Positions 12,936 through 38,352 of a stretch of DNA of 38,352 bases are shown here, in pieces. The notes beneath the pieces are model-generated. The model ran no database searches, was not told the DNA's origin, and saw only the letters and a list, made by a program, of their open reading frames with translations. Made by a program: the position numbers and the translations under genes. Position 1 is the first letter of the stretch; each line of letters starts with the position of its first letter. Location of the stretch: positions 1 through 38,352 of IMG/VR virus record IMGVR_UViG_3300042898_000518; one strand, written 5' to 3'. This DNA comes from a virus.

Positions 12936-12937
12936 CC

Positions 12938-13161: not shown

Positions 13162-13205
13162 TTTCCTTGTCTCTACGGGGCTGCTAGGGTGCTTAAACGG
13201 GCTGT

Positions 13206-13400: not shown

Positions 13401-13409
13401 TGTTTCTCC

Positions 13410-13922: not shown

Positions 13923-14164
13923 TACTCACTCGCTTTCTTGTCAACCTTAGCAAAGGCTGCGTTGATTTCTTCTGATGATAGGCTGCCGTCTGCTAGATAG
14001 AAACGGGCAAGTGCTTCAAGCACTCGTGCTGCGCCTAGCGCACCAGCCAGAGTTGCTGCCTGCCATACTTCAATACCGACTAGAGAGCCAGCGCCAATAA
14101 CTCCGAGTGCTTCAGCAGCAATAACTGCAAAGATTCTCATCATTACATTTTTTAGTGTGTCCAT
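13922..14164 (-). CDS. Two-helix membrane protein, holin candidate
   Basis: An 80-residue product with hydrophobic helices at ~8-30 (MRIFAVIAAEALGVIGAGSL) and ~33-52, then an acidic soluble end (SSEEINAAFAKVDKKASE). It lies directly upstream of the endolysin with overlapping stop/start (TAATG). Small size, two helices and position make it the best holin candidate of the cassette. Confidence 0.68.
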   Translation of the reverse strand: MDTLKNVMMRIFAVIAAEALGVIGAGSLVGIEVWQAATLAGALGAARVLEALARFYLADGSLSSEEINAAFAKVDKKASE

Positions 14165-14331
14165 TATTCGTCCTTTGGGTTTCTAAGTGGGTAAGTAACT
14201 GCCCACGCGAATAGGGTTGCAAAAATAGCAACGCCTACAACTTGCTTGGCTGAACCATCAAGGACTACCCAGGCAATAAACATGCCTAGCAGTGTCCAGA
14301 GTTGTTCGACCATATCTTTTAATATCTTCAT
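14164..14331 (-). CDS. Two-helix membrane microprotein, holin or antiholin candidate
   Basis: A 55-residue product whose ATG overlaps the previous stop (ATGA) with GGAGAAAACC upstream, and whose stop overlaps the next ATG. Hydrophobic segments at ~11-25 ([14 protein letters not shown]) and ~30-48 ([15 protein letters not shown]), ending in PLRNPKDE. Paired with the 80-residue protein it could form a holin/antiholin set. Confidence 0.6.
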
Positions 14332-15764: not shown

Positions 15765-15903
15765 CTTGGTCTTTGACTGATGATCCCCCGTTATTTTTAA
15801 GTTCGCTCAGATAGTGCTTAACAAGCCAGCGCACTGATCCAATAAAACTACCTACTATTGTGGTTACGGCAACTGCTAACGCTGCCCAATCTACGGCTGT
15901 CAC
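15703..15903 (-). CDS. Membrane protein with coiled coil, lysis-cassette type
   Basis: A 66-residue protein with one hydrophobic segment (~6-29, [22 protein letters not shown] in part) then a charged heptad-like tail ([19 protein letters not shown]). Similar short helix-plus-coil proteins lie beside endolysins in many Gram-positive phages (XhlA-like or accessory holins). ATG 15903 abuts the tail-protein stop. It overlaps the following gene by 62 bases. Confidence 0.62.
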
Positions 15904-18116
15904 TATAAGACGCTCCTGACTGTTACTAGGAGTAGACCACCGAATCCATCAAACTGACCATTAGGTGGAGTCTTACGTGAGAAGTCAATGCGCTCAATGA
16001 TTGCTTGGATACGCTCACCAGTGGTGAAGTCCTGCACGTTTACAATGTCGCCTACTGCTTCTATATCTTCGAGAGTTTGAATACGCTCCCACGCACGGCC
16101 TTCATATCCAGTTTGCACATTGTATCTGTCTTTTTCGATATCGTAACACCAGACTGGAAACTGAATCAGTCTCTGGCGCTTAGTGGCAGGTAGTGCTTTT
16201 GCTTGGTATCCCTTAAATATAGGGCCTCTACTGGTATCGCTTGCGCTGCGTGAGAGCGTAAACTTGTACGATAGGAACTCTTGTGGGCCTTCTGGGTTAG
16301 TTGTAGCAGCCTCTGGTGTTCCAATGCTAGCGTTGTAAGTAATAATATTATAAGTGTTAGAAGTACTATCAATGGACTGAATATCCATAGCGCCGTAAGA
16401 ATAGTCTCCACGCGCGCGGATAAATTTATAGTTCTTAGGTTCTAGAGTTCCGTAACGGATAGCACCAGTGGTTAGGTATCCAGAAGATACTAATGTAGAT
16501 GCAGACTCTAAATAAATTGCTCCGTCAGTACTGTCATATGCGGTAGCAAAGGCTAAACGGTTGGTAGTTCCGATAAAGGCAACGGTAGTGGTTTCGTGGG
16601 AACTATCTTGGGTTCCAATAATGTCATTAGCATAAGCAAAGCGAAGCGCTTCACCTTCAATGAGTTGGCTTAAATCAATGCGAGTAAGTCCTGCATTAGT
16701 TCCAACTCCAGTAGTAGCCCATACGAAACGATCACGAGCAGCAAAGTCATACACCGCTTGGGTTGTCTCTACGATTAGTGGGCCATAGGCAAGAGATCCG
16801 TCTTGATCGTTGATCTCAGCAACACGTACACCTTTGCTAGTACCGATCATCATGTAGCCAAGATAGTAATATAGTTTTTCTACTATCTCTCCAGGAGGAA
16901 ATTCAGCAGCAACAACAGCCTGTGTGAGCACTGGCATGGAGCCATTAGTGCCTAGGGTGTACTTCTGAATAGTTGAATAGACGCCTGAATGACCGGCAGT
17001 GTAGATAGCAGGGCCAGAAGCGGCTGCGGTTGTGTAATGATAATTTGTGTTGGGATTGGTGTACACCGAAGTAGGCAAAGCCGAAGCATTGGTTGTTAAC
17101 TCATATACAGAGTTATTTATACATAGAACAATACGATCTTTAACAAATTCCATAGCAGCATATACAATAACAGTTCCAGTTGCTGTAAACATAAGAGTTT
17201 CATCAGCAGTATTAGTTGCATCTCCAGTTAAAGGCTTCTTGTACATATGAAGTTTATTTGCACCACCAGCAACAGCATTAGTCACCCAATAGGCATTGAC
17301 TCCATCATCGCAGATAGCACGAACAGGCTCTGCGCTTCCAGTCAAATAGTCAATAAAATGAATTACTGGGTTGGTCACACCAGCACCGACTGGAGATACC
17401 GCAGTAGAAGTTACGTTAGATGCTGTTTTGGCGTAGGTAAATGTAGTTGCTGTGGGTACAGTTGTAATGCGGTAAGCACCATTAAATGTTGCATCTACCC
17501 CTGTAATTGTAATAGTCATGCCTATTGTAAGCCCGTGGGCTGTAGGTGTAGTTAGTGTTGCTACGTCAGATGTTAAAGCCTTATTGCTAATCGATACAGT
17601 AATTGCTGGGTAAATTTTGTCTACGTCGTACTCATCGTGAAGCAATACACCGTTTACGCCAGACCATTGAATTGAACGTGCGCGTTGGTGAGGATGCTGA
17701 TGATCGGTTCCAACTACAGCACCAGTTGTTGGATGAGTATTGGTAGTCTCTCTGAGAAGTGATACCTGTCCTTTAGTCCAGACATCCACGCCTTGGGAGT
17801 CCTTGAAACGATATCCAACAGACTCACCAGCAGTGGGATCATAGAAGTTAATGCCAGATCCACCATGGAATGATGATTGAGAACGGATCCACCAACCAGT
17901 AAGAGACTGCTCGCCAGGTTCGCGTGAGTTATCAAACTGTTCCTTGCGGTAAGGTGCAGTCTCTCTCTGGTATGGATTAACATCTGTTGGTGCTAAGAAG
18001 AACGGGATGCCACCAAAGGCTACGTCGTAATCCTCGGCATTGTTAGTCCAGAAACCTGCAGTTCCAGGATTACCAATGTTTAAGGGTAAATCTTCCGTGA
18101 TATCGGGGGTAGCCAC
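15903..18116 (-). CDS. Large tail protein, probable beta-propeller-type nozzle/hub
   Basis: A 737-residue structural protein starting at GTG 18116 with AAGGAG upstream. Strand-rich sequence with repeated aromatic and Gly turns (residues ~260-500 look like repeated blades, e.g. GGANKLHMYKKPL, AMEFVKDRIVLCINN, YYYLGYMMIGTSKGV). The C-terminal region (TGYEGRAWERIQTLEDIEAV) resembles minor tail proteins of actinophages. In a short-tailed phage this would be the nozzle or hub. It lies between the adhesin genes and the lysis genes, the usual place for distal tail proteins. Exact family not identified. Confidence 0.65.
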   Translation of the reverse strand: MATPDITEDLPLNIGNPGTAGFWTNNAEDYDVAFGGIPFFLAPTDVNPYQRETAPYRKEQFDNSREPGEQSLTGWWIRSQSSFHGGSGINFYDPTAGESVGYRFKDSQGVDVWTKGQVSLLRETTNTHPTTGAVVGTDHQHPHQRARSIQWSGVNGVLLHDEYDVDKIYPAITVSISNKALTSDVATLTTPTAHGLTIGMTITITGVDATFNGAYRITTVPTATTFTYAKTASNVTSTAVSPVGAGVTNPVIHFIDYLTGSAEPVRAICDDGVNAYWVTNAVAGGANKLHMYKKPLTGDATNTADETLMFTATGTVIVYAAMEFVKDRIVLCINNSVYELTTNASALPTSVYTNPNTNYHYTTAAASGPAIYTAGHSGVYSTIQKYTLGTNGSMPVLTQAVVAAEFPPGEIVEKLYYYLGYMMIGTSKGVRVAEINDQDGSLAYGPLIVETTQAVYDFAARDRFVWATTGVGTNAGLTRIDLSQLIEGEALRFAYANDIIGTQDSSHETTTVAFIGTTNRLAFATAYDSTDGAIYLESASTLVSSGYLTTGAIRYGTLEPKNYKFIRARGDYSYGAMDIQSIDSTSNTYNIITYNASIGTPEAATTNPEGPQEFLSYKFTLSRSASDTSRGPIFKGYQAKALPATKRQRLIQFPVWCYDIEKDRYNVQTGYEGRAWERIQTLEDIEAVGDIVNVQDFTTGERIQAIIERIDFSRKTPPNGQFDGFGGLLLVTVRSVL

Positions 18117-20887: not shown

Positions 20888-23004
20888 TAGTATGCTCCCA
20901 TAATTGTCATAATATCTTGGTCACTATTTGTAGCAGCAACCGCTGTGATAGTTGCGTAAGGTGTCAGGTCTGGGTCAGGTACTGCTGCCCATACAAGACC
21001 AGTTGCTGTAGTAGAATCAGCCTTGAGATAATGTCCGTTAGTTCCAAGTGTTAACTTACCTACAGTGTCTGCACCAGTGCCAGCAAGTAAATCTCCCTTT
21101 GCATCAAAAAGTGTAGGAGATAATACGTTGGCTAATTCAAATGCTGTAAAGGTAATAATCTCAAGTACATCTCCAGCAGTAAGTGCTGCAAGAGAAGAGA
21201 TGCTAGTTCCGTTAGTTGCTACATAATCTGTTGAGCGAACTAGCAATACACCGTTAAGGTATACTTGCTCTTTGCCAACAATATAAGAAAGAGTTAATCC
21301 GTTATCATCAAGACCTGACTCAGAAGTTTCTCCGCCTGATGCTGTAAAGCGATAGCGGAAAATGTCTGAGGTAGATGAGATGGATGCCCATTCAGCACCA
21401 TCCCACGCAAGCATTGCGTTAGATGTTGAGTTCCAATATAAAGCACCTTCAATAAGTGCGTTACCGTCATTGTCTACAGATGGAGCAGATGACTTGCTAC
21501 CAAGGTAACGGTCATCAAAAGAGTCATACGATTCAGCGGCAGCGGTTGCGCTTGCAGCGGCTGCTGTGGCAGAACCAGCAACGGTATCTACGTAAGCCTT
21601 TGTAGCGGCGTGTAGGTCTACTGTAGGCGCACCAGATAGGGTGAGAGCGCCAGTCATAGTTGAACCTGACTTGAGTACTACAGTAGACTCAAATGAACCA
21701 CCGCTTGAGATTGCAGTAGCAATCTCGTTTAGAGTGTTAAGAGTTCCAGGAGCACCGTCTACGAGAGCATTAACCTGAGCATCTACGTATGCTTTAGTTG
21801 AGGCATCCTGTGCTGAGGTAGGGTCTAGCAACGAGGTAATCTTCTGGCTGTTTAGCGATACTGAACCAGTAGGTGCAGCCATCTGGTCTAAGCGAGACGT
21901 GCGTACCTGTGTGTCAAAGTCAGAGATAGTTGAGGCTGCCTGTGTACCTGTGTGGTTGGCGCGAGCATATGGGTCAGATACCATCTTGGCTGCAGTAATA
22001 GTTCCGTCAGCAATATCTGTTGCTACGATAGTTCCATCTACCAAGTCAGCAGAAGTAATAGTTCCACCAAGACTTAACTTAGTGTAAGCAATACCTGCTG
22101 TACCAGAAACATCTTCGTTTACGATTGTGCCATTAGCAATCTTGGCAGAAGTTACTGCACCGTCAGCAAGGTCTCCAGTTGCGATAGTTGCATCTAGAAT
22201 TTTAGCAGAGGTAATAGCGCCATCAGCGATATCTCCAGCAACAATAGTACCGTCAGCGATCTTGGCTGAGGTAATGGCTGAGTCTGCAATCTTACCTGTT
22301 GTTACGTTAAGGTCTGCAATCTTTGCAGTTGTAATATTGCTGTCTGTAATCTTAGCGGTGGTAACTGCAGCATCAACAATCTTTTCAGTGGTTATTGATA
22401 GATCATCAATCTTAGTTGTGCCTACAGCACCAGTAGCAATCTTGCCGCTTGTAATAGCGCTATCAGCAATATCGCCAGTAGCGATGCCTAGATCAGCGAT
22501 CTTAGCGGAAGTAATCGCGCTATCTGCGATCTTTGCTGTTGTTACGTTAGCGTCAGTAATCTTGGCTGTAGTAACAGCGTTAGACTGCAACATAGCAGTC
22601 GTAATCATGTTTGTATCGGTTGTCTCAAGGACGTTAGCAATAGTCAAGCCATGGGCTGTGGTGACGTTTTCAATGTGAGTATTAGCCTCACGGAAGTCAC
22701 GGCCGATAGCCATGTGGCGAACTTTAGCGCCAGCAGAGTGAGCAATCGCAGTTGTGCCATCTACGCCACTACCACGAGTAATAGTAAGAGTGTTGCTTCC
22801 AGGTGCGCTGGGGTTAATTACATCAACAATTTCTTCAAGCGCTGTATCTGGATCGATAACTACTGTAAAGGTTTCACCTGCTGCTGGAGTAATACCAGAG
22901 AGGAGACCAGACGCAGAAGCCACAACCATCGTGCTTGCGCCTGATGATAACGCTGAGGTAAGTGTAGTTTCCTGTGAAGTGGAGGAGTATTTTCTTATTG
23001 TCAT
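20887..23004 (-). CDS. Tail fibre with tandem (T/S)AKIADxxIT repeats
   Basis: A 705-residue fibre. Residues 1-~130 form a folded N-terminal attachment domain. Residues ~143-345 consist of tandem ten-residue units such as TTAKIADSAI, TSAKIADLGI and ATGDIADSAI, predicted to build a long trimeric beta shaft. The C-terminal part has STKAYVDAQVNAL, ATKAYVDTVAGS and coiled-coil Ala/Ser stretches, found in other fibres (STKAYVD is a widespread fibre motif). It initiates at ATG 23004 overlapping the connector stop. It bridges the tail to the glycine-rich adhesins downstream. Confidence 0.85.
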   Translation of the reverse strand: MTIRKYSSTSQETTLTSALSSGASTMVVASASGLLSGITPAAGETFTVVIDPDTALEEIVDVINPSAPGSNTLTITRGSGVDGTTAIAHSAGAKVRHMAIGRDFREANTHIENVTTAHGLTIANVLETTDTNMITTAMLQSNAVTTAKITDANVTTAKIADSAITSAKIADLGIATGDIADSAITSGKIATGAVGTTKIDDLSITTEKIVDAAVTTAKITDSNITTAKIADLNVTTGKIADSAITSAKIADGTIVAGDIADGAITSAKILDATIATGDLADGAVTSAKIANGTIVNEDVSGTAGIAYTKLSLGGTITSADLVDGTIVATDIADGTITAAKMVSDPYARANHTGTQAASTISDFDTQVRTSRLDQMAAPTGSVSLNSQKITSLLDPTSAQDASTKAYVDAQVNALVDGAPGTLNTLNEIATAISSGGSFESTVVLKSGSTMTGALTLSGAPTVDLHAATKAYVDTVAGSATAAAASATAAAESYDSFDDRYLGSKSSAPSVDNDGNALIEGALYWNSTSNAMLAWDGAEWASISSTSDIFRYRFTASGGETSESGLDDNGLTLSYIVGKEQVYLNGVLLVRSTDYVATNGTSISSLAALTAGDVLEIITFTAFELANVLSPTLFDAKGDLLAGTGADTVGKLTLGTNGHYLKADSTTATGLVWAAVPDPDLTPYATITAVAATNSDQDIMTIMGAY

Positions 23005-23909
23005 TAGTACCTCGTGTAGTGGATTCGGGTTGGATAAACGTCTTTAAGTTTGCCTGATTCTTCTTGTAGGCGTTGCTGGAATAGACCAAGCATAAAGCGA
23101 GCAGTAGATGCTCCTGAACCGTATTGGATCTTTGTATCTGCGTTGTCTGCTTCTGCAGATGAATAGTTTAAACGGCCTGGGTCAATAAATGCGGCAAGGC
23201 GATAAGATGCACCATAAATGATTACATCCTTACAAGATGAAGGCAGTCCCGTCACTGTCTCAAATACTGCACTAGATGCAGATGCTTCTAGAGTTGCTGG
23301 TTTCTTAGTGTAATAAACTTGTACTTTACGACCTGCTTCTACAGCATCGTAGATCGATACTGTGTTGCCAGTTGTAAAGGCTGTGCTATTGGCTAATGGG
23401 TCATGACGCCAATTCCGGACTGGCAGCCACTCTTTAGATGCACCACTAACGCTACGAGATATGTAAAGTATAGTTTCTACTTCTGCTGGAATCTCATATG
23501 CTGAAACTGCTGGGTTATAGTTAAACACATAAGTTCCAACAGCAAACAGTTGAGGAAATACTGCATTCAGCGTATCGTTGATAGCCTTCTTTACGGTTGC
23601 CTTAGGGAAGGTAGGGGCAACGGTAACTTTTGTATTTGCTGTATGAAGTGCTGCAGTAGTACCGTTATAGCCACGACCATAAGGTGCAGCAGTGGCGGTA
23701 CTTGAAACACGGTCATAAGAGTCTAACCAGATGAGTTCGTCATCAATTTCAACAACACCCTTACCAATATTGGTAACGCTACCAAGATTAAGTGAGAGAC
23801 CAGAGGATGTTATATCCTGTGTAAGGTGCGTAGTACGATCTTGTCGCAAAGTATAACCTGCTAGATTGAGAAGGATCTCATCTACCATATTGGCATAGGT
23901 TGTTGTCAT
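23004..23909 (-). CDS. Connector / tail-adaptor-like structural protein
   Basis: A 301-residue protein. The N-terminus (MVDEILLNLAGYTLRQDR) and the body with predicted strand-helix layers, an aromatic Trp/Arg block (EWLPVRNWRHD) and a helical C-terminus (ARFMLGLFQQRLQEESGKL) look like head-tail adaptor or tail-tube A proteins. It lies after capsid and the lysine-rich genes and before the fibre. No diagnostic motif, so assignment is by position and texture. Confidence 0.5.
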   Translation of the reverse strand: MTTTYANMVDEILLNLAGYTLRQDRTTHLTQDITSSGLSLNLGSVTNIGKGVVEIDDELIWLDSYDRVSSTATAAPYGRGYNGTTAALHTANTKVTVAPTFPKATVKKAINDTLNAVFPQLFAVGTYVFNYNPAVSAYEIPAEVETILYISRSVSGASKEWLPVRNWRHDPLANSTAFTTGNTVSIYDAVEAGRKVQVYYTKKPATLEASASSAVFETVTGLPSSCKDVIIYGASYRLAAFIDPGRLNYSSAEADNADTKIQYGSGASTARFMLGLFQQRLQEESGKLKDVYPTRIHYTRY

Positions 23910-26208: not shown

Positions 26209-27396
26209 TTAGATACGAACTGATGATGCAGTCTCGATGCGGTATAGCGCTTCTTGACGGAAGATAGACCAGTTGATGATACCGTGCCAGCCGACTGGGC
26301 GGAAACGGTTCAACTTGTCTACAACGTTACCAAACTCAATGCCTGGTTCCTTCCATACTGCTTCAGCAAGTGCTTGCTGTCCGAGTACGTAAGTGTTGTA
26401 AACGCGTGCCTTTGGAGTAACTGTAAGTGTGTTTGTTCCAACAGTTCCTGAGTTAGCAACAGACACTGTGAATGTAGTGTTTGTTGTACCAACTGAGATT
26501 GCTGTAATCAAAGCACCAGTACCTACGTTAGTACCAGAGATAGCATCGCCAACCTCAGCAAGACCACCGAATGCGCCATTGGCTGCAACGATAGTGAACT
26601 CACCTGAGACACCGCTTACTGCAGGAGCAGTAGCAAGTGCTGTTAGAGCCTTACCTGAGATAGTGTTGGTCATGCGTGGTGTCTCGATGAAACGGACACC
26701 TTCCCATGCGCCGAGTTCTCCTGCAAGGAGTGGGCCGACGTTCTGGTACTCATGTGGTGTACGCCAGATGTTGTTTCCTGTCTCTGTGCGGAGATCGTGT
26801 GAAACTTCTGGGTGGATGTATGAAACATACATTCCGCCACGAGGAACAACATTTCCAGCGCGCAACTTTGTTACTGCGTAACGTACGTCGCGTCCCTTGA
26901 ATGTGTCTGTTGTATCGATTGTTGACTTTGCTGCAGTTGTAGAAAGCGCTCCGCCAGATTCACGGATTACGTTTGTACCTGCATCTAGAACAGCGGCGAT
27001 ACCGTTGTCTAGTGTTGTTGCCATGTTGAATGCAACTGCGTTAGCAATCCATGGATCAACATCTGAAAGTGACATAAGAGCCAACTTACGTGTTGGGAGT
27101 ACTACGCGACCTAGTTCTGTCTGTGAGACATCTAGGATTGTAGTTGCTGGCATTGCTACTGCATCTGGATCTACAGTCTCAGCGAGTGTTGCACCTGCGA
27201 TTGAGGTGTCAGCGATATCGTTGTAGAACTGGAAACGGATTGAAGAACCATCGTGGGTTGGGTTTCCGACCTTCTTGTCCGCGATTGCGCGGAACTGTGG
27301 TGTTGTACGCAAGTTCATTTCGATTAACTTGTCGTACGCCAAAGTTACAAGATTGGAACCTAAACCAGTGGTCGAGGTTGAAAAGACATCTGCCAT
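26209..27396 (-). CDS. Major capsid protein, N4-gp56-like, with inserted domain
   Basis: A 395-residue HK97-fold-type capsid protein; the phrases YVSYIHPEVSHDLRTETGNN (~190-209), GELGAWEGVRFIETPR (~226-241) and the final VGWHGIINWSIFRQEALYRIE are characteristic of the N4-gp56 family. Between ~244 and ~328 lies a Gly/Thr/Ala-rich strand segment (starting SGKALTALATAPAV) that interrupts the usual join to KARVYNTYVLG; it looks like an added Ig-like/bacterial-type domain. ATG 27396 has AGGAGATATCCGCCC upstream. Scaffold gene precedes. The most abundant virion protein is expected here. Confidence 0.92.
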   Translation of the reverse strand: MADVFSTSTTGLGSNLVTLAYDKLIEMNLRTTPQFRAIADKKVGNPTHDGSSIRFQFYNDIADTSIAGATLAETVDPDAVAMPATTILDVSQTELGRVVLPTRKLALMSLSDVDPWIANAVAFNMATTLDNGIAAVLDAGTNVIRESGGALSTTAAKSTIDTTDTFKGRDVRYAVTKLRAGNVVPRGGMYVSYIHPEVSHDLRTETGNNIWRTPHEYQNVGPLLAGELGAWEGVRFIETPRMTNTISGKALTALATAPAVSGVSGEFTIVAANGAFGGLAEVGDAISGTNVGTGALITAISVGTTNTTFTVSVANSGTVGTNTLTVTPKARVYNTYVLGQQALAEAVWKEPGIEFGNVVDKLNRFRPVGWHGIINWSIFRQEALYRIETASSVRI

Positions 27397-27428: not shown

Positions 27429-27911
27429 TTATTGACCGCTTAGGATGGATAAAATCTCATCTTCTGAGCCTGCATTCGCAATACGATTTGCAAGGTCATC
27501 TGATGCGCCAGGCGCTTCTGCTCCAGTTAACGCGTTATTCATTCTTTGCATGCTTTGGATATCTTGCTGGCTTACAGCCTGCTTTTCTTCGGCTTTAATT
27601 CCGAATACATCAGCATAGTTATCAAGCCATGCAGCGATTGCTTCTTCCGAAGCATCGATATCGTTTGGAATGAATGAAGCGATCTTTGGATTCACGCCTT
27701 TGGATGCAAAAGCATCCTTGATAATCCGCTCACGCTGGGCCTTGCTGAGTTCTCCGAGACTGCCTTCTAGTTCCTTGTTACGCTTCTGTGCCTGCTTGAG
27801 GTCTTTGCGTAGTTTCCGAACCAAGTCAGTATCTGATTCAAACGATGGCGTAAAGTCATCATCTTCATCTTCGTCAGTTTCCCAGTTGATGTTGTCGCGG
27901 TTGTTGCTCAT
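27429..27911 (-). CDS. Capsid scaffold protein
   Basis: A 160-residue acidic protein. The N-terminus is dense in Asp/Glu (WETDEDEDDDFTPSFESD), followed by a coiled-coil helix (TDLVRKLRKDLKQAQKRNKELEG in part) and a helical C-terminal half. The position immediately upstream of the capsid gene and the acidic plus coiled-coil composition are typical of scaffolds. GGGAGAGG precedes the ATG. Confidence 0.82.
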   Translation of the reverse strand: MSNNRDNINWETDEDEDDDFTPSFESDTDLVRKLRKDLKQAQKRNKELEGSLGELSKAQRERIIKDAFASKGVNPKIASFIPNDIDASEEAIAAWLDNYADVFGIKAEEKQAVSQQDIQSMQRMNNALTGAEAPGASDDLANRIANAGSEDEILSILSGQ

Positions 27912-28030: not shown

Positions 28031-29284
28031 TTAGAGCAGTCCTGCTGTGCTCGTTCCGCCTAGTGAACCACCTGACATACGGTTGGCTCCTATTGTTCCT
28101 GACTTGCGCTGGAAGGCTAGTTGTTCTTCCTCAACGCGTCGTCTCAAAAGTTCTGATGCAGTGCCGCTAAATTGCTCGGCTTCTAACTGCTTCTGTAGGT
28201 CAGCGCGTAATTGTGATTCTGGCATAGATCCCATGCCTGTACGCTTTCCGTAAATCTGTTCAAGTTTAACTAGCGGATTAAGTTGTTGTCCGATTGTTTC
28301 GAATCCTTGAGCAGCAACGCCAGTTACCTGAGCCTCAGTAAGTCCCTTGGCTGTTAGTTCTGCGCCGATCTTTCTAGCAGAATCAAGATCAACGGCAATA
28401 CCTGACTGAGCACGACGAACTGCTTCTGTAACGAATGCAGCGGTGTTCACGTTCTGCTGCATTACTTCTTGACCGATCTTAGGATCTAGGTAGAAGTCTG
28501 TGAGACCAGTAGCGTCCTTGATGTTTCCAAGTTTAATTAGGGCTTGGACTTTTGCTGGATCTGCATTAATTGCAGCAAGGCGAGCAATATTTGCGCGCTC
28601 GCTGAATGTCTGAACATCTACGTTATTCTTAACAAGTTCTTTTAGATACTCAGGAGTTGTGAACTTCTTATCTAGGTTAAAGCGTTGCTGGACTAACTTG
28701 TAGCCTTCAACTGCGTTATATAGTTCGCTAGGAGGCTTAGGAGATGCCAGCACCTCATTGAGGTATCCATACTCTGTATAGAACGGAGACTTCATTTTAG
28801 TACCATTTTTGAGTGTGTACTCTTGGTTGTTCAAAAAGATATCTGTAGCGTTATCGTAATCAAGACCTTCTGCAAGAAGGCTGCTTAGGAAACCAGTAGA
28901 AGCATCAACGACTCCAGAAGAAAATCCTAGACCTTTGAGTTGTGCCTTCATAACATCGATGTTTGTAGTTGGCTTAGTTGGCTCAGTAACTGTCTTACTG
29001 CCAATTATCTCTTTGTCACCGTTGCTATAAACAATAGTCTTAGTGCCATCATTATTATCAACAATATCAAATACTGTACGGCTACCAGTAGGAATTACAG
29101 CAACTGGAGTAGGCTTAGCAGGCGGTGTGTACTTGCCATCAACAATGGCTCCACCAGCAGCAGCCGCAGATGCAGCGGCAGCAGCACGTGCTTCCGCAAT
29201 AGCGGCCTTAGCCTCGGCTACAGAAGGATCTACAACAGGAGTAGGAGTATTAGTTCCGCCAGATTCGGGTCTTGGTCTAGCCAT
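28031..29284 (-). CDS. Structural protein, probable internal/ejection protein C
   Basis: A 417-residue protein. The N-terminus holds a long Ala-rich helix (EAKAAIAEARAAAAASAAAA), then extended and helical segments rich in Leu, Asn and Gln (GYKLVQQRFNLDKKF, KIGAELTAKGLTEAQVTGVA) and a charged coiled-coil C-terminus (LQKQLEAEQFSGTASELLRR). It lies with 29284-30588 and 30590-36400 as three consecutive genes between portal and scaffold. Three successive ejected proteins are also found in P22 and T7, though elsewhere in their genomes. No specific family recognised. Confidence 0.6.
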   Translation of the reverse strand: MARPRPESGGTNTPTPVVDPSVAEAKAAIAEARAAAAASAAAAGGAIVDGKYTPPAKPTPVAVIPTGSRTVFDIVDNNDGTKTIVYSNGDKEIIGSKTVTEPTKPTTNIDVMKAQLKGLGFSSGVVDASTGFLSSLLAEGLDYDNATDIFLNNQEYTLKNGTKMKSPFYTEYGYLNEVLASPKPPSELYNAVEGYKLVQQRFNLDKKFTTPEYLKELVKNNVDVQTFSERANIARLAAINADPAKVQALIKLGNIKDATGLTDFYLDPKIGQEVMQQNVNTAAFVTEAVRRAQSGIAVDLDSARKIGAELTAKGLTEAQVTGVAAQGFETIGQQLNPLVKLEQIYGKRTGMGSMPESQLRADLQKQLEAEQFSGTASELLRRRVEEEQLAFQRKSGTIGANRMSGGSLGGTSTAGLL

Positions 29285-30588
29285 TATCGTCCTAACTTAC
29301 TACGAAGGGATTGCATAACGTTTACACCTTCGTTAATTGCTCGGGATGTTGTTCCATAACGTGAATCAGAGATAACGGCTTGGTTGACTTCAAACTCGTT
29401 TGGAAGGCGATACACGCCTTTATCATCTTTGAAGTTTGCAAGTTTAATAACTAGTGGGTCAGTAATGCCAACCTTGGTTTCTAGCGCAATACTCAATGAG
29501 TCCATCAATGGGTTGAGCACATCTGCGGCATCTTTGCCAGCCTTGAGGCTTTCAGCGATGCTCATGTACTTAGTACCCATCTTGTCGCGGATACCGTTGC
29601 GGTACTGAGTTAGCATCTCTGCGCTCTGATTGGCGTTGCTTGCACCGATAGCGTTTTTAATAATTGGGGCAACTGTAGATAGATCAGGAACTGTATCGAA
29701 GTTCTTAGAGTGTGCCTCAGCAATAGAGTCATACAGAACCTTGGCTGCTCCGCCTAGTTCTTTTCCACTCAAAGTTACATCAGGGAAGTTCTGGCTAATA
29801 TAGTCTGCCAAGAATGCTTGCTGTTCTTCTGCGGTAAAGCCTTCACCAGAAGTGGTTGTAGTACCAGTGTTGATAGTTTCATACTGTAGTTGCCCAGACT
29901 TATTAACAGCCTGCTTACCTGTCTTAGGATCAATAACAGGACGGTAAGTGGTTTTAGTACTTGTACTGGTTGTAGCCTTCTGACGCTTTACTTCTGCGTT
30001 CCAAGCGGTCTGGAAGTTTCCAAAACTTGATTCTTGAGGAAAGTATCCGTATGCTTGGAAGTGGGCATCATTGTAGCCTTGCTTAGCATCTGTAAGATCC
30101 TTGAACTGTAGCGCAGTAGATACGGCCTTGTTATACTTGGCAGTAGTATCTTGCTGCTTAACAGCACCATCTCCGCCAACACCACTTCTCTTGAAGAGTT
30201 CTAGTAGGGTTACTGGATCTGTATTGTTGGCTACAGCCAATGAAATAATCTTGTCTAGACCAGCAGCATCTCCTGGGCCAACTACTCCGATAGGAGTTTT
30301 CTTGTCCTTTACAAAACCAGTAGAGCGGAGAAGTGTCTGCAGGTATTCATATTGAGTGCCTTGACCACCAGGGCCACTGTTAGCAACACTCATCTCACGG
30401 CGGATATTCTGTAAAGCAAGAGCCTTTGCAGCAGGATCTGTAGTGCTTGCATACGCTAAAAGGTTATTAGTAGATGCGTAAATATTGCCAGGAACCTGTG
30501 AGGCCATCTCAGATATTGCTGCAAATGCAGATCCAGATAAACCAAGTGCAGCATTACTTGCTGCTTGACTCTGTTTAGTAACGGCCAC
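29284..30588 (-). CDS. Structural protein, probable internal/ejection protein B
   Basis: A 434-residue Ala/Gln/Ser-rich, largely helical protein with an N-terminal Ala/Ser stretch (SQAASNAALGLSGSAFAAIS), a Thr/Ser linker in the middle (TTSTSTKTTYRP) and a helical end. It is coupled to its neighbours (ATG overlapping the preceding context). The texture fits proteins stored in the head and ejected with DNA. Could also be a tape-measure-like component if the tail is long. Confidence 0.55.
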   Translation of the reverse strand: MAVTKQSQAASNAALGLSGSAFAAISEMASQVPGNIYASTNNLLAYASTTDPAAKALALQNIRREMSVANSGPGGQGTQYEYLQTLLRSTGFVKDKKTPIGVVGPGDAAGLDKIISLAVANNTDPVTLLELFKRSGVGGDGAVKQQDTTAKYNKAVSTALQFKDLTDAKQGYNDAHFQAYGYFPQESSFGNFQTAWNAEVKRQKATTSTSTKTTYRPVIDPKTGKQAVNKSGQLQYETINTGTTTTSGEGFTAEEQQAFLADYISQNFPDVTLSGKELGGAAKVLYDSIAEAHSKNFDTVPDLSTVAPIIKNAIGASNANQSAEMLTQYRNGIRDKMGTKYMSIAESLKAGKDAADVLNPLMDSLSIALETKVGITDPLVIKLANFKDDKGVYRLPNEFEVNQAVISDSRYGTTSRAINEGVNVMQSLRSKLGR

Positions 30589-30589
30589 T

Positions 30590-33500
30590 TTAGTCCTCCA
30601 GTTGTCCTGCGAATACGCCGTAGTACATACGACTAAATGATTGATTTCGTAGCATTAGTTCCTCTGCTAAAGATCGCAATTCGTTACGCATCAAAGTAGC
30701 AAGACCACCCTTTGAGGTGAGTTCTGCATAGTTAGATACCTTTGCCTTATTAAGAATGTCCTGGAATTCGCTATACTTTGAGTAGAACTCAGAAGTTTCC
30801 TTATATACTGGAGACTGTCTAAACGCTGGATCTTCTAGCGCGTTCTTAACAGAAGCGATCTTTTCAAGAACAGCACCTGTTGTGATAGTAGACGCTGGCT
30901 TAGATCCACCAAATGTTCTATCCAGTTTAGCAATCTGCTCTGTATACCAGATATCGCCATAGCCATTAGCAATCTGTTCATTAGCAATCTGACTCTTCAT
31001 CATAGTGTAGACGCGAGACTCAGCCTCATTTGCCAACTCATTTGTTGATAATGCACGACGAGCACCGCTACGCTTCTGCCAGTTGTAATACTTTAGAGAG
31101 TATTCCCCACCAGGGAAGAAGTATGGAATAATATCTCCAGGAGCCTTAGCATATTTAGCCACTGACTCTGGGTTGTTATTCAACCAAGTCCAAGCATCTT
31201 CTGTGCCTCTAACTCCTGGTGTAGTTCCACCAAGGGTAACAAGCAGGTTCTCGATGCCATAAGTATCAGCAAATAGCGATACAGCCTTGCCATAATCACC
31301 AGGATTATCGTCTGTAATTCTCTGCCAATGATCGTAAAGCATGGTCATTGTCATAAAGTTTAACTTGTTATCAGGGCTTTTAATTTTTGCAAGCACTTCA
31401 TCTTGTGGAGTTGCTGCTGAGATACTCTGGAATAGAGCACCAAAGAAGCCAACTTCGCGTGATAGTGATTCCGCATCCTTAAACAAGCGGTTTCTTTCAG
31501 CATCGCTAGCCATTGGATTCTCTCCATAGTTGCCAGTTGAGGCAAGATATGCAGCCCAATCTTTTACTCCGCGCTGTACAGTTGCTTCATCACCCATGCG
31601 ATATGCGATAGTCTTTTTGAGCCATGCAGGGAATACAAAGTCTCCTGCACCCTTTGGCGCACCAAATGGTGTAATGATGTCTCGCAAGATATCGTTAGCA
31701 GGGCCAAATGCTGTAGATTTACCTGTAGCAGCGAATAATCCTTGTGCTACTGGGCCAATACCAGGAAGTCCTGGGTTAACCTGTCCAAATGCTAAGTTAA
31801 GTGACTGAACTGGAGAAGTCATTTGTAGTGCTTGACTAGCACCTTCAACTCCAGAAGTCATACTAGCCATAGCACCAAGTACTGTTCCTGCAAATGGTGT
31901 CTTAAACTTCTTAGGGCCATTAGGGGTATCTTGATAGAAGAAACCCTGTTCTGGATCATAAGTTACGCCACTGATATCGTAGAGAACGTTTGAGCCTTCT
32001 TTATTCAAAGCATCGAATGCTTTAGCAAACTTAATTGCAGGCGTTGGGTTCTTAGATAGTTCAGCCCACTTGCTTAGCGTATTGTAATGTGCCTGAGCAA
32101 ACGGGAAGATTAGGCGGACAGCATTAGCGTATTGCTTTTGCTGACCTGCATCATAGAATAGACCTTTAACATACTTGCTTGCTTCACGAGCAGCCATAGT
32201 ATCAATAGTCTTTAGGCTTGTAGTTCCACCAACATAGGAAGGGTTCTTCTGGCGCTTTGCGATCTCTTTGTTGATCTCACGAAGCACTGGGCTTCTGCGG
32301 CCAAATATCTTCTTACCATTTTTGTTGATAGGAGAAAGCGACTTAATTGCATTAGCACGGAACTGGATTAAATCTTCTGTCTTTAGAAGTGGTGCGTATC
32401 CAGCAGCAAAGTCCCAATAAGCCATCTGGAACTCTGGGCCAAAGTTTAACTTAGACTCAGCATATGCTGCTTTTTCGAAGAACCAGTCCACGAAAGAAGT
32501 AAATGTTTTGTCTAATTCTCCAAAGACTGCTTCTTGATTTTTAACAAATACAGTAGAGCCTGTTAGATCCTCTGGCTTGAACTCATCAGCCATCTTCTTA
32601 ATAAATTCTCTTTCAAGAACATTAAGTTCTGCAACAGTTTTACCACCTGTTGAGTATGGGGCTTTAATCTTAACCAACTTGTTACCGCGAGTTACGGTTA
32701 TTTCTCCATCACGGATTAGATCAAAGATCATGTTTGACTTAGGGCCAGTGCCGGCAACGGCATTAATCTGGCTAATAACTGTATCGCCTTGGCTACTGTC
32801 AAATAGATGAATTAGAATATCGTCTATATTCATATTCTCTTTAACAATTCCAGGGCCTGATTCAGTTGTATTTTTTAGATAAATCTGTCGCAATCCAGGA
32901 TTGGTTGTGAATATGCTAGCCGCAAAGTTTCTTAAAGGATTATCCTTATTATCAAAATCTTTAACAAGACCTTCTAGCCAACTACGTTGCGCTTCTGGTG
33001 ATGAGTCTTTTAGTCTGATAATTGCAGACATGAACTTATCTGATACGAAGTTATTTACAGTGTATGCCAGACCTTCTGAGAAATCTGGGTGGTCACTTCC
33101 AACAACCTTAAAATTGTTAAATATCTGAGAGCGTCGATTAGAACGAATATCTCCAGCAGAGTTAAGTCTGTTCCACCAAGAACGGAATCCAACTGCGGCA
33201 TCGCCTAGGTCTGCTTCTGCTTGTTGAGTCTTAAATGCATTACCAGATGCATCGTATTGAAACTTAGCATACTTAGACATGAACTTTGTAAATCCGTTAC
33301 CTTCTGGATTTGCTACCACTGTAGATATAAATCCAAGAGGATTGGTGAATAAACTGTTGTGACCAGATAGCATTTGACGCATTTGCATTTCTGCGATATT
33401 GCGTGTTACATAAGCAAAACGACCGACCAACTGTGCTGTACGCCAGAAATCACCAAACTCTTCTAGTAATACTTTACCAGCACGAGCCTTGTTTATTACA

Positions 33501-36400
33501 GCGTTAGATTTGTACTTTCCTACTGCCTTGTAGATTTGTCTGCTATCTGGCAGGAATATAAAGTCTTGTACTGCTTGCCACTCCATGAGTGCTTTATCAA
33601 TAGCAATCGACTCGCCATTTGTAACAGTAATATGTGGACTGCTATCAGTTATCGCTTTGTTAAGACTATAAACTTCTTCAAGAGCGCGTTCTTTACCGCT
33701 TATCTTGGTAACTTTTTTAAGATCATCAATCAATTTAGCGTCTAGGGCTAGGTCTGTTCCGATTGCATCTACAATCTTAGCAACGCCATTTACTACAGCA
33801 GCACCACGTTCCTGATTAGTAGTAGCCTTGAATATGTCGCGTTGAATTTCAGCGATAAATACCTCTTGGCGATTCTTACCAATAGCCTGTTTAATACCAG
33901 CAGAACTTACCCAGTCGGCAACTCCATTAAGAAGTTCTGTGCCATTACCAAGGCTTAGTACAGATCCACGAACATAGTTGCGTCCGAATACACGGTCAAC
34001 CTTTTCTACAAATTTAACTACCTTTAGGTTTGCTGGATCTACCAGACGCGCCATTGGAGATGCTTGCAATTTTAAGCCAGTTGAGACCGCATCACGCACA
34101 GTGCGTGGATCCATAGTCTCGCCACCGACGTGATTCAAAAGAACTCTTAGTACATCTTCTGTGTTATCAGCATTAGTCAAAGCCTGAGTTAGTTCAAGAT
34201 CCAACTTGCCACCAAATAGGTTGTGAACTCGTACAGGATCTGTCTCTTTAGCAACTACTTCTGCCACAACTTCAAAGCGCTTACCAAGTAGGAACTTGAG
34301 GTGCTTATCAAAATCTTTAGTTACGTTGCCAGAGAAGCCATCAACTAAACCTGCTTCTACGCGTAGCGCTTCGATACCAGCAGTCTTTTCAGCAACCTGT
34401 GCTTCAATGTTTAGAATCTTCTTTAGACCCTTGTAATCTGGATCATTAATAAGTTCTTTTAGGATCTCTGGATCGTTGTTAGCGGCCTGACGAAGCGAGT
34501 AGATGTAGTTAAGTCTATCGTCTAGATCGTTACCCTTGAGAACTGCATCTTCAAGTTCATACTGACGGCGAGCAATTACTTCTTCTTTACCCTTGATAGA
34601 TGAAAGTAGTTTTGCAAGATTAGGGCCAAGGTTAGTTGGGTCTGCAACTTCTGCTGCAGCAACTGCAATCTCTGCTCCCTTTGCACCGATCTTTGAGTTA
34701 TTGGTGATTACTACACCACCAGTTTCTCCATAAATGGAGCGAATGTTAGTAAATCCGTCAACCTTCCAGATGCCTTCAATAGCCTTGCGAATTGCATACA
34801 TCGCTTCTGGGTTCTTATATTTAGCAACCTGACCAATAAGTGATCCTAGTGACTCTGCTTGAACAAGTTCATCACCGATAGCAAATAGTGTTCCGTGGAA
34901 ACCTTCTAGGTTTGCAGTTTGCTGATCTAACTTAGTGCTGAGTTCCTGGAATATCTGCATCTGAGTAGTATCGTCAGTCTTTTTAGACAGACCGCGGATT
35001 GCATCAATCAACTTAGCGCGCTTCTTGGCTTCTTCTGCAACCTGCTTAGGAGTAGCCTTGGCAAAGTTATCGTTTAAGTCAAGAAGGTTAAACTTCTGAT
35101 CGCCTCTAGCAGTGATTACATACTCAAACTGCTCTTGAGCGCCTACAGATATCTTACCTGCTTCTGGTACTTCATCTAGGAATATGTTACCTCTAAAGAA
35201 ACCACCAGTGTTCTTTGACTCTGCAGCAAGTGTATCGATAGCGCGAGTTAGTTCACCGCTGCGTACCTTTTCATGTGTGCTAAACCAATTAGCCACTGCA
35301 GGAACAGATAAAGTTTGACTTGCAATATCATCAGCAACCGCATCCCCTCCTGGGAACATGATGGTTTGCTCTGTGTTAAGCAGTTCTTTTACTGTGCTTA
35401 CCATAGTCTTATTAGACTTTTTTTCCAACTCAGCAATTTCCATGGCGGTTTTATGGAGGCTGGTATCAATGCGCTTGTATTGCTTAGCGGCTTCTTTCTT
35501 ACCAGTCTTGTAAAGTTCTTTACGCTCTGCGCGTAGTGCGGCTTGCTTCTCAGCAAGTGCAGCCTTCTGTGCAGCCTCTGTAAATGGCTCTGCAGCAAGT
35601 TTTAATTCTGAGGCTTTCTTACCGCCTTGAATAATCTTACCTACTGAGCCAGGCCCTAGCCATACAGAAGGATCTAATCCAATGTTAAGCACAGCATCAA
35701 TAGTGCCAGACATGATTTTGTATGCAGTTGTATCAGGATCTTGAGCCATGCTCTTAGCAGCCCAACGACCAATAGTAAATGAGTCTCCACCGATCTTGCC
35801 ATAGGCTTGCATAGCCTTGGCTTGATCTTTACCAACCTTAGATTTAGGATCAATAAAAAAACCAGAACCTGTATCTACACCGCCACCGTCAACAATATCA
35901 GTTATAAGAGAACCAAGTAGTGTACTTTTGAAAGTATTCATTGGATCAGAATATGGAAGACGACCTGTTGAAATATCACGTGCATTAACAGTTGTTAGGT
36001 CATAGATAGAACGAAGTCCAGCAAAACCTACACGAGTGGTGGTCTTAAATCCAGCATACACTGTGTTATTAAGAGCATTTCCAATTTGACCAACAATTCC
36101 ACGGTCAGATGCTACGGTTTTCTTAATCTTATCGACATTCATCATGTCGTTTTTAAGTTTTGTAATACCGTCTACAGAAACAATGGTTCCAATACCAGGA
36201 GTATCAGCAGTTAGACCCTGTTTTACCATAGAGGTAATCAAGTCTTTGCTGATATTTGGGTACTTGTTAGCAATCTTAGTAAAGTTATCAAACTTATCAG
36301 GTGTTAAAGAACCCAATTCCATAGAAACCATGCGGTTTCTTGTTTCTTGTACAGACGATTTAGAGTAAAGTTCCTTGTAAACATTTAATTTTTCTGCCAT
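30590..36400 (-). CDS. Giant 1936-residue internal virion protein
   Basis: The largest gene of the window. Mostly helical with many coiled-coil stretches; the N-terminal third includes several long Lys/Glu/Ala helices (AEKQAALRAERKELYKTGK). Around residue ~1430 there is a region with KQYANAVRLIFPFAQAHYN and NPTPAIKFAKAFDAL, a FPF-type motif that recurs in large phage internal proteins. Later come GAPKGAGDFVFPAWLKK and an aromatic C-terminal third (WQRITDDNPG, WTWLNNNPES). There is no signal peptide and no recognised catalytic motif. Placement between portal and scaffold is unusual for a tape measure, favouring an ejected channel- or core-forming protein. It may be multi-functional; a search for enzymatic domains is warranted. 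Confidence 0.7.
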   Translation of the reverse strand: MAEKLNVYKELYSKSSVQETRNRMVSMELGSLTPDKFDNFTKIANKYPNISKDLITSMVKQGLTADTPGIGTIVSVDGITKLKNDMMNVDKIKKTVASDRGIVGQIGNALNNTVYAGFKTTTRVGFAGLRSIYDLTTVNARDISTGRLPYSDPMNTFKSTLLGSLITDIVDGGGVDTGSGFFIDPKSKVGKDQAKAMQAYGKIGGDSFTIGRWAAKSMAQDPDTTAYKIMSGTIDAVLNIGLDPSVWLGPGSVGKIIQGGKKASELKLAAEPFTEAAQKAALAEKQAALRAERKELYKTGKKEAAKQYKRIDTSLHKTAMEIAELEKKSNKTMVSTVKELLNTEQTIMFPGGDAVADDIASQTLSVPAVANWFSTHEKVRSGELTRAIDTLAAESKNTGGFFRGNIFLDEVPEAGKISVGAQEQFEYVITARGDQKFNLLDLNDNFAKATPKQVAEEAKKRAKLIDAIRGLSKKTDDTTQMQIFQELSTKLDQQTANLEGFHGTLFAIGDELVQAESLGSLIGQVAKYKNPEAMYAIRKAIEGIWKVDGFTNIRSIYGETGGVVITNNSKIGAKGAEIAVAAAEVADPTNLGPNLAKLLSSIKGKEEVIARRQYELEDAVLKGNDLDDRLNYIYSLRQAANNDPEILKELINDPDYKGLKKILNIEAQVAEKTAGIEALRVEAGLVDGFSGNVTKDFDKHLKFLLGKRFEVVAEVVAKETDPVRVHNLFGGKLDLELTQALTNADNTEDVLRVLLNHVGGETMDPRTVRDAVSTGLKLQASPMARLVDPANLKVVKFVEKVDRVFGRNYVRGSVLSLGNGTELLNGVADWVSSAGIKQAIGKNRQEVFIAEIQRDIFKATTNQERGAAVVNGVAKIVDAIGTDLALDAKLIDDLKKVTKISGKERALEEVYSLNKAITDSSPHITVTNGESIAIDKALMEWQAVQDFIFLPDSRQIYKAVGKYKSNAVINKARAGKVLLEEFGDFWRTAQLVGRFAYVTRNIAEMQMRQMLSGHNSLFTNPLGFISTVVANPEGNGFTKFMSKYAKFQYDASGNAFKTQQAEADLGDAAVGFRSWWNRLNSAGDIRSNRRSQIFNNFKVVGSDHPDFSEGLAYTVNNFVSDKFMSAIIRLKDSSPEAQRSWLEGLVKDFDNKDNPLRNFAASIFTTNPGLRQIYLKNTTESGPGIVKENMNIDDILIHLFDSSQGDTVISQINAVAGTGPKSNMIFDLIRDGEITVTRGNKLVKIKAPYSTGGKTVAELNVLEREFIKKMADEFKPEDLTGSTVFVKNQEAVFGELDKTFTSFVDWFFEKAAYAESKLNFGPEFQMAYWDFAAGYAPLLKTEDLIQFRANAIKSLSPINKNGKKIFGRRSPVLREINKEIAKRQKNPSYVGGTTSLKTIDTMAAREASKYVKGLFYDAGQQKQYANAVRLIFPFAQAHYNTLSKWAELSKNPTPAIKFAKAFDALNKEGSNVLYDISGVTYDPEQGFFYQDTPNGPKKFKTPFAGTVLGAMASMTSGVEGASQALQMTSPVQSLNLAFGQVNPGLPGIGPVAQGLFAATGKSTAFGPANDILRDIITPFGAPKGAGDFVFPAWLKKTIAYRMGDEATVQRGVKDWAAYLASTGNYGENPMASDAERNRLFKDAESLSREVGFFGALFQSISAATPQDEVLAKIKSPDNKLNFMTMTMLYDHWQRITDDNPGDYGKAVSLFADTYGIENLLVTLGGTTPGVRGTEDAWTWLNNNPESVAKYAKAPGDIIPYFFPGGEYSLKYYNWQKRSGARRALSTNELANEAESRVYTMMKSQIANEQIANGYGDIWYTEQIAKLDRTFGGSKPASTITTGAVLEKIASVKNALEDPAFRQSPVYKETSEFYSKYSEFQDILNKAKVSNYAELTSKGGLATLMRNELRSLAEELMLRNQSFSRMYYGVFAGQLED

Positions 36401-36828
36401 TAAATGCCCAATTCGTTATAGGCTTCTACGATTGCAATTAGTTGACTAGAGTTTGGATTTGCTGCAAGCAAAGCACGAGCCATAACGGAACCAGGATCAA
36501 CAGCATCTACTGGTTCGGCCATACCTGTGTTATCTCCAGGGCCACCAGGGGCAGACTGAGATAATGGTACTTGTGTACCTGAGTATGAAGTTGCAGGAAT
36601 AGCCTTAATTGGATTAACATATTCTTGTTGTCCAGTTACGCTGCTTGCTGTAGGTGCTGTAGCAGAACCCTGCGCTAATTCTTTATTAGTTTTACGTTCA
36701 TTGTATGAACCACCAGATGCATTTTCAATTCTAGCACCGCGTTGTGCGCGCTGTGTGCGTTCTACAACGTTGCGATCTGTGCGAGATGAGCCTTTGCCAA
36801 CACCTGATACTTTTTGTTGAAATGCCAT
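36400..36828 (-). CDS. Hypothetical disordered protein, 142 aa
   Basis: A small protein that is basic in its first ~40 residues (DRNVVERTQRAQRGARIE) and Gly/Ser/Thr/Pro-rich in the middle, with a helical end (MARALLAANPNSSQLIAIVE). It looks largely disordered apart from the C-terminal helix. Overlaps the giant gene start by one base (TAATG). Portal-associated or early head-assembly role is possible from position only. Confidence 0.6.
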   Translation of the reverse strand: MAFQQKVSGVGKGSSRTDRNVVERTQRAQRGARIENASGGSYNERKTNKELAQGSATAPTASSVTGQQEYVNPIKAIPATSYSGTQVPLSQSAPGGPGDNTGMAEPVDAVDPGSVMARALLAANPNSSQLIAIVEAYNELGI

Positions 36829-36831: not shown

Positions 36832-37059
36832 TTAGTCCTCATCATCATCTTCATAGGGTTCATCGCCAATTTTTTCTAGCGGTTTAACTGGGAGTATCCA
36901 CGATGGGAAAGACTCTTTATCTAGTATCATCCAATAAGCCATGTCACTTGAAAAACCTGCACGGCGTAAAGACTTGTACCACTCGTTCAAAGCAATCGCA
37001 TAGGCGTCCATAGCAGAGTAAGTATCTAAGTCAATGACTTTCTTACGAGTTGCCATCAT
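36832..37059 (-). CDS. Small protein after portal, 75 aa
   Basis: The sequence reads LDTYSAMDAYAIALNEWYKS then LRRAGFSSDMAYWMILDKES and ends in a run of acidic residues (EPYEDDDED). Two helices and an acidic tail. Similar short proteins with a GFS..MA motif are common directly after portal genes in actinophages, with no known function. Either Met1 or Met2 could start it; it lies one base from the portal stop. Confidence 0.65.
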   Translation of the reverse strand: MMATRKKVIDLDTYSAMDAYAIALNEWYKSLRRAGFSSDMAYWMILDKESFPSWILPVKPLEKIGDEPYEDDDED

Positions 37060-37060: not shown

Positions 37061-38352
37061 TTATCCCATCGTTGCTAGAATGCTTGCTAAATCCTGTGGT
37101 GGTGCTTGTTGTGGAGAGGCCCCACCAGAAGGTTGTCCAGGAGTGGCTGGGGACGGGGGCGCCTGCTCTACTGGGCCTTGTGTGCCTGGTGGAGCCGTCT
37201 CTGGCTGCATCGGTTGTTCAGGCTTTGGAGGCGTGAACACTGCCAAGGCAGCATCCTCTATGTTTTCCCCCTTGCGACGACGTTCAATAACGTCGGCAAT
37301 ATTACGGATTAGCGCAGATGGATCTTGTCCCTGTGCGACCATCGCAGGAATTGCTTGTGCAGTTGCTGTGATAGAGGCTGTAAGATTATCGCGCATTTTT
37401 TCGATTTCAATTCGTTGTTCTTCTAATGTTACGTTAACGCTCCATGGAAGTTCACGACGGATGAAGTCTTTCGATACTAGGTCTGCACCTAGTGCTTGAA
37501 GTGAGAATATTAGGGCGCGGGAAGGGTCTAATCCAGCCATCAAACCATATCGAACCTCTATTGAAGAGTCTCCATTGATGTCTTTGCTTGGCTTGTACTT
37601 TAACTCGTACGGCGTACCTTGCGCTGTTCCTCTAACACTCTTATCTTCATCGAATAGCATCTCATCTACTTCAAAGCACAACTTGAGAATGTCCTCGAAC
37701 ACCTCAGCAAGAATGGTTTGACCAGCCTTGATCTGAGAGTCGAAAGCACCAAGTAGTGCCTGGACACCTTGACCAGTAATAATACTGGCATCAATGTTTC
37801 CAGTTCTACCCTCAGGATATCGAGCACCAAGTCGTAATTCAGATTGGAGTGCTGATTGCTCCTGAAAAGTAGCAGCGGGAATGTCAAGTTTGACACGCCC
37901 GACACCTTGTGGTTGGGATGTGCGAATAATCGCATCAGGCCCCATAGGCAAATCAATTACATCGTTAGGTACAACGAATGGTGCTTGGATAGACTTTTCA
38001 GCCGCTTCCATAGCAAGGTTTGCAAAACGAGCACGAGCCATCTGTACATAGATAACATCGTCAAATTGTCCGCGAGACTCATCATCAATTCCAGGACGAC
38101 GTGCAATACGCACAGTCATCTTACCCAATGGGTTCTTGATGCGGCTCAAAACTAAGTTACTGCGTGAAGGTACATATAGGACAGTCTGATCTTTGTCCAT
38201 GTACTTAATAAGTTCAACATCCATGTTGTTATCTCGGTCATAACCTAGACGACCAAGAAGCGCAGGAGCGTGTTCTGGGAACTCGTTAGCAAGTTCATGT
38301 ACAGTTTTCATGTAACGCTTGGCGTATGCTACGCATCGTCCAAAGCGATCAT
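37061..38352 (-). CDS. Portal protein, N-terminus cut off by window edge
   Basis: The frame is open to the right edge (38350 is its first complete codon, 429 residues seen), so the ATG at 38311 is internal and the gene is partial. The visible part has the portal texture: NPLGKMTVRIARRPGID, YVQMARARFANLAMEAAEKS, RTGNIDASIITGQGVQALLG, then a helical segment with FEDILKLCFEVDEMLFD and a long helix LTASITATAQAIPAMVAQGQ, ending in a Pro/Gln-rich tail typical of these proteins. It forms the dodecameric DNA channel of the head. Terminase genes presumably lie beyond the edge. Confidence 0.78.
   Translation of the reverse strand, partial: DRFGRCVAYAKRYMKTVHELANEFPEHAPALLGRLGYDRDNNMDVELIKYMDKDQTVLYVPSRSNLVLSRIKNPLGKMTVRIARRPGIDDESRGQFDDVIYVQMARARFANLAMEAAEKSIQAPFVVPNDVIDLPMGPDAIIRTSQPQGVGRVKLDIPAATFQEQSALQSELRLGARYPEGRTGNIDASIITGQGVQALLGAFDSQIKAGQTILAEVFEDILKLCFEVDEMLFDEDKSVRGTAQGTPYELKYKPSKDINGDSSIEVRYGLMAGLDPSRALIFSLQALGADLVSKDFIRRELPWSVNVTLEEQRIEIEKMRDNLTASITATAQAIPAMVAQGQDPSALIRNIADVIERRRKGENIEDAALAVFTPPKPEQPMQPETAPPGTQGPVEQAPPSPATPGQPSGGASPQQAPPQDLASILATMG

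Follow-up and report, generated by a model that had tools for sequence, protein, structure and literature searches.

Predicted ejection-protein cassette with a cysteine-free giant protein in a phage probably infecting freshwater actinobacteria

Three minus-strand genes at 28031-36400 of the window (the whole stretch of DNA analysed, 38,352 bases) encode a giant protein of 1936 aa and two partners of 434 and 417 aa, and very likely specify the ejection proteins of a short-tailed phage whose actinobacterial host probably lives in fresh water and stands close to 'Ca. Nanopelagicales'. This reading is based on the full-length homology of the giant to giants of short-tailed phages, the wall hydrolases on the partners and the enzyme inserts in the giants of relatives, the exclusion of cysteine and the exchange of the cassette as a block. 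The original prediction of a three-protein ejection apparatus as in P22 or T7 is thereby supported in its functional part, but not as regards sequence similarity to the proteins of those two phages.

Gene organization and conservation of the cassette

The cassette and the structural genes around it are arranged in the window as follows:

37061..38350, minus strand: portal protein lacking its 5' end (about 151 aa cut off by the contig end); phrog_104 portal, E=2e-14; full-length 580-aa homologs at 98-99%
36832..37059, minus strand: small conserved gene, 75 aa, in the portal/cassette interval; position kept in relatives
36400..36828, minus strand: 142-aa conserved gene directly upstream of the giant and homologous to gp7 of Immanuel3 (hhalign probability 92%); adjoins the giant in relatives
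30590..36400, minus strand: giant, 1936 aa, ATG start, cysteine-free, mostly helical in AlphaFold models; predicted to be an internal virion protein that is ejected, homologous to Streptomyces podovirus gp9 (hhalign 99.7%, E=6e-27, residues 86-1933, with bridging giants)
34676..35323, minus strand: alpha/beta domain within the giant, residues ~360-575; pLDDT ~85-95 over most of it; no Pfam match and no significant fold match
29284..30588, minus strand: 434-aa partner, GTG start; C-terminal domain of gp11/gp12 type (hhalign 97.6% to gp11, 95.7% to gp12), no Pfam or enzyme domain; N-terminal part possibly gp10-like (only 64%)
28031..29284, minus strand: 417-aa partner, ATG start, phrog_8424 family (2.3e-14), gp13 of Immanuel3 (hhalign 100%, E=2e-54)
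27429..27911, minus strand: scaffold-like protein at the cassette boundary; phrog_7813, 1.6e-37; phrog_648 head scaffolding, 8e-6
26209..27396, minus strand: major capsid protein; PF13252, 1.3e-13; phrog_1357, 3e-57
23004..23909, minus strand: head-tail adaptor; PF24175 SU10_adaptor, 3.4e-7; 35-46% identity to Streptomyces podoviruses and phages E7/F5

The genes are tightly packed, with 1 base between the giant stop and the 434-aa start, and 1-base overlaps between the 434-aa and 417-aa genes and between the 142-aa gene and the giant. The earlier description of three coupled genes of ~8.4 kb in the portal/scaffold interval is thus exact in its coordinates, and the synteny is kept in relatives. 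Beyond the capsid, the window encodes the SU10-type adaptor, fibre-like and glycine-rich proteins and a 737-aa protein. The longest ORFs of this region (737, 705 and 478 aa) had no tape measure match in the Pfam and PHROG searches, in agreement with the claim that no tape-measure-like gene follows the capsid. The contig itself looks circularly permuted (1-853 and 37061-38352); the terminase and the portal start seem to be missing, because the order in the relative L015 is a 207-aa gene, terminase and portal.

Relatives of the giant in IMG/VR numbered 28 by an initial scan and at least 185 by an alignment scan, with the gene order kept, so the cassette is not a chance arrangement. The order portal, small gene, 142-aa gene, giant, 434-aa gene, 417-aa gene, scaffold and capsid is kept with hardly any change in the loci examined, wherever the contigs are long enough, and giants of the window's own lineage have 1918-1970 aa. 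About 100 contigs of uncultured phages carry this cassette at the same place, as do E7 and F5, which are phages of Nanopelagicales, and the Streptomyces podoviruses (Beephvirinae). Further giant subfamilies with an identical layout came from a portal-based scan and from a scan with a 595-aa fragment of the F5 giant, whose matches are relatives of that fragment.

Homology, predicted structure and enzyme domains

The adaptor search matched Streptomyces phages as well as two Planktophila phages. In the Streptomyces podoviruses Immanuel3 and Kumquat, the portal/scaffold interval is occupied by a giant, gp9, followed by gp10, gp11, gp12 and gp13. The link between the window giant and gp9 was weak before bridging giants were included; one of these, L204, matches the profile of gp9 (1.9e-46) as well as that of the window (8e-12), and in tblastn it reaches Streptomyces giants down to 5e-28 and that of Abafar at 2e-26. 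With the bridging sequences, the window and gp9 families align over nearly the full length of the giant (hhalign 99.7%, E=6e-27, residues 86-1933). Similarly, the 417-aa protein matches gp13, which is located upstream of the scaffold (100%, E=2e-54), and the 434-aa partner has the phrog_6654/gp11C C-terminal domain (97.6% to gp11, 95.7% to gp12), while a gp10-like origin of its N-terminal part is weak (64%). A fusion of gp9 and gp10 in the window giant, which the lengths suggested, was rejected by hhalign comparison.

The cassettes of Immanuel3, Kumquat and Abafar therefore share with the window a homologous giant, proteins of the 417-aa and 434-aa types, gene order and portal/scaffold location; however, they have their own gp10 gene and carry NlpC/P60 and SLT domains on two partners, whereas the window has one enzyme-less partner. 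As judged from sequence homology, the window cassette belongs to the Streptomyces-type giant cassette, and it is classified as an enzyme-less homolog and not as an identical system because its partners lack both NlpC/P60 and SLT domains. In the Streptomyces records compared, the cassette genes are annotated as hypothetical protein, peptidase, glycosylase or minor tail protein, and never as ejection protein.

The helical character predicted for the giant is seen in the AlphaFold models of its two halves (residues 1-960 and 901-1936), which consist mostly of helices at moderate confidence (68.7 and 63.6). The giant and its alignments had no significant match among Pfam, PHROG and PDB sequences, and neither the giant nor the 417-aa protein matched a phage record in tblastn. 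Foldseek found no significant match for the N-terminal half against PDB and viral models, and only four uncharacterised phage proteins at E <1e-3 for the C-terminal half. The alpha/beta domain at residues ~360-575, which is confidently predicted, could be either resident cargo or part of the structure; a degenerate ART domain at residues 385-575 was considered and dropped, the ART-PolyVal profile having no match. No strong transmembrane segment is present in the giant, 434-aa or 417-aa protein of the window. The giant had also been credited with FPF-type motifs common to large phage proteins, which is mostly unsupported, as it contains a single FPF (residue 1432) that is missing from most related giants outside its own lineage; FPF as a family motif was rejected on the same ground.

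Wall-degrading domains are found on the partners of related cassettes. In Immanuel3, gp11 starts with NlpC/P60 (3.6e-30) and gp12 with SLT (2.5e-5), and SLT_3 is present on the matching partner in L029 (4.8e-16), L171 (1.9e-28), L155 (8e-10) and also L161. In the window cassette, Pfam gave no wall-degrading domain, and the 434-aa and 417-aa families are without any Pfam domain. Such domains are known to shift between, or disappear from, the ejection proteins of T7, K1E and P22 (PMC8954989). Elsewhere in the window, a short protein with an apparent signal peptide (9635-10060) has a weak SLT match, below the cut-off, among the replication genes, and a CHAP endolysin is encoded far from it, at 13410-13922.

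The giants of several relatives carry enzymes inserted in frame. An ADP-ribosyltransferase (ART) insert is present in five F5-type giants, of which that of L224 (10943-11581) matches PF03496 at 2e-16 and has the R, SST and ExE motifs. The L043 giant has a GNAT insert (4621-4920; PF00583, 1.3e-4, 22.6 bits against a cut-off of 20.7), and in other F5-type giants the inserts resemble ParB weakly, below the cut-off (e.g., L229, 8118-8603). The ART and ParB-like inserts occupy one common site. Domains of the ART and GNAT types work intracellularly and are characteristic of phage proteins that are delivered (PMC5512222), and the very large phage polyvalent proteins, with ART, GNAT or ParB-like domains, are thought to be delivered to the host (Iyer 2017, PMC5512222); the window giant differs from them in having no recognised enzyme insert, the inserts being found only in its relatives. 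The suggestion that the giant may hide enzymatic domains is accordingly borne out for related giants, but no enzyme or effector domain was recognised in the window copy (Pfam, PHROG and ART-PolyVal profile).

Because the giants of close relatives carry different enzymes, the cassette gives the impression of an exchangeable delivery system. The chances are about even that actinobacterial podoviruses have an exchangeable ejection cassette in which the cysteine-free giant acts as a carrier, with unrelated host-modifying enzymes (ADP-ribosyltransferase, GNAT, ParB-like) in the middle of the protein, and that whole cassettes are traded among phages of the same host. Such a cassette, if real, would deliver proteins into single-membrane bacteria, a system of which no description was found in the literature searched.

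Cassette exchange, cysteine exclusion and alternative functions

LanE43AprE7 and LanE43AprF5 (E7 and F5) are Planktophila phages isolated on one strain (Kavagutti 2023, PMC10202952). They have in common with the window the cassette position, the portal, scaffold and adaptor families and the WhiB and sigma factor genes; however, their giants (1764 and 1711 aa) are of other subfamilies than the window's. The two genomes are 96-98% identical on both flanks of the cassette, whereas E7 8373-16921 (L031) has no nucleotide match in F5 (L131), where the counterpart consists of the 1711-aa giant and proteins of 364 and 482 aa, the latter two still recognisable homologs. The genome sequences thus show the whole cassette exchanged between E7 and F5 as a single block. 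Other phage pairs have portals ~96% alike, yet giants of different subfamilies. The E7/F5 work describes an 8 kb island of three or four hypothetical proteins, without function in the main text (PMC10202952), and by size and content this island is the giant cassette.

Cysteine is nearly absent from the giants, with 2 residues in ~318,600 (n=186), both in over-extended gene calls and no further in than residue 14. The window cassette has 0 cysteines in 2787 residues against 8.5 predicted from the other virion proteins (P=1.9e-4, with residues treated as independent), and the sole constant cysteine in the cassettes is the catalytic one of NlpC/P60 (17/17). Among known ejection proteins, T7 gp15 and gp16, N4 gp51, gp52 and the first 3008 aa of gp50, and P22 gp7, gp20 and gp16 are cysteine-free and T7 gp14 has one, so that 8 of the 9 proteins checked in T7, N4 and P22 lack the residue, while neighbouring tail proteins mostly have it. 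The cysteine-free N4 virion RNA polymerase has been explained by threading through the tail (PMC3915230). However, tape measures are cysteine-poor as well (Scarif 0, Kamino 1); the exclusion therefore supports threading, but not ejection over a tape measure.

As is usual for podovirus ejection proteins, the window genes are clustered in one operon and one of them is much larger. N4, with a giant plus two partners, is a closer analogue than P22 or T7: its gp50-gp51-gp52 (Schitoviridae), ejected via the short tail (PMC12633501, PMC3915230), likewise comprise a cysteine-free giant and two smaller partners in one operon, but they have no sequence similarity to the window proteins and a different gene order, no polymerase was found in the window, and the window host is predicted to be actinobacterial. 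T7 gp14-15-16 and P22 gp7-20-16 are also cysteine-poor and encoded in operons of three genes, and a hydrolase domain sits on one member in T7 and is lost in P22 (PMC8954989). Their sequences are not detectably similar to those of the window, and their genes lie after the tail genes instead of in the portal/scaffold interval, a different genome position that had been foreseen. The T7, P22 and N4 ejection proteins, entered as single sequences, reached a best hhalign probability below 1% against the window families, and Foldseek of the N-terminal half of the giant (PDB and viral models) gave no significant fold similarity to them. The likeness is therefore functional, and the cassette is not placed in their families.

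By analogy with T7 and N4, which supply the packaging, exit order, pore formation and cytoplasmic giant of this scheme (PMC8954989, PMC12633501), the giant and its two partners would be packed in the head near the portal and, on adsorption, would thread unfolded through the short tail ahead of the DNA. The partners would line the passage across the cell wall and membrane, and the giant would reach the cytoplasm and help to pull the DNA in; in some relatives, it would carry a host-modifying enzyme insert into the cell.

The observation proposed at the outset as arguing for a tape measure was a long tail scaling with the giant. The Abafar (Beephvirinae) homolog has 1644 aa (L033, 6499-11433), for which ~247 nm would be expected of a tape measure at 1.5 Å per residue (the value used in PMC11536984), but Abafar is a podovirus with a tail of 16 nm (PMC11536984), so the giant is not a tape measure in Abafar; the short tail is known for this remote homolog and is a prediction for the window phage. 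A giant serving as tape measure of a long tail, with tail-tip proteins as partners, is accordingly very improbable, even though the giant is long, helical and cysteine-free like the Scarif tape measure, and gp11/gp12, the hydrolase-like partners of relatives, are annotated as minor tail proteins. The proteins searched include no tail-tube, tail-terminator or assembly-chaperone gene product but do include a podovirus-type adaptor, two tape measures compared by profile have no similarity to the giant, and enzyme inserts of 160-213 aa are present in close relatives of one subfamily.

The location between portal and scaffold would also suit assembly factors inside the head or at the portal that are retained in the particle, and block exchange is compatible with a self-contained head module. 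This is unlikely, since the hydrolase and host-modifying domains on relatives make sense only for proteins leaving the particle, and the cassette is swapped while portal, scaffold and capsid stay. An N4-type virion RNA polymerase, to which the giant with two partners and the name of the Abafar capsid (capsid_maj_N4) could point, is scarcely credible: Pfam and PHROG gave no polymerase family match, the first 3008 aa of N4 gp50 have no profile similarity to the giant, and the phage sigma-like and WhiB genes suit the use of the host polymerase. Ejection proteins thus remain the preferred assignment for the three genes.

Host, significance and other genome features

The window encodes a WhiB match (2.5e-16), and its WhiB and sigma-70-like genes (4584-4922; 5899-6600) are present as in the cultured Nanopelagicales phages. 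Together with the G+C content and the nearness to E7/F5, WhiB suggests a freshwater actinobacterium as the predicted host. The bacterial genome contigs scanned contained no relative, and therefore pointed to neither a prophage nor a host.

Most known ejection proteins belong to phages that infect Gram-negative bacteria, and the phi29-like phages of Gram-positive bacteria have none (PMC8954989). If the ejection assignment is true, the conserved giant-based cassette would reveal how podoviruses of Streptomyces and of the abundant actinobacteria of fresh water get through a thick wall and a single membrane. It would also give a role to thousands of residues labelled hypothetical or minor tail protein, and account for the 8 kb island left unexplained in the first Nanopelagicales phages brought into culture. 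As candidates for early host takeover, the enzyme inserts could be tested directly.

Additionally, two primase-like ORFs (126 and 206 aa) at 8459-9296 overlap by ~160 bases, perhaps through a frameshift, and a similarly long overlap is present in Immanuel3, Kumquat and E7. At 1806-4235, an Amidoligase_2 match (9.9e-6) adjoins a 285-aa protein, which presumably looks like a class II glutamine amidotransferase, and a similar gene pair is found in L015 and L021.
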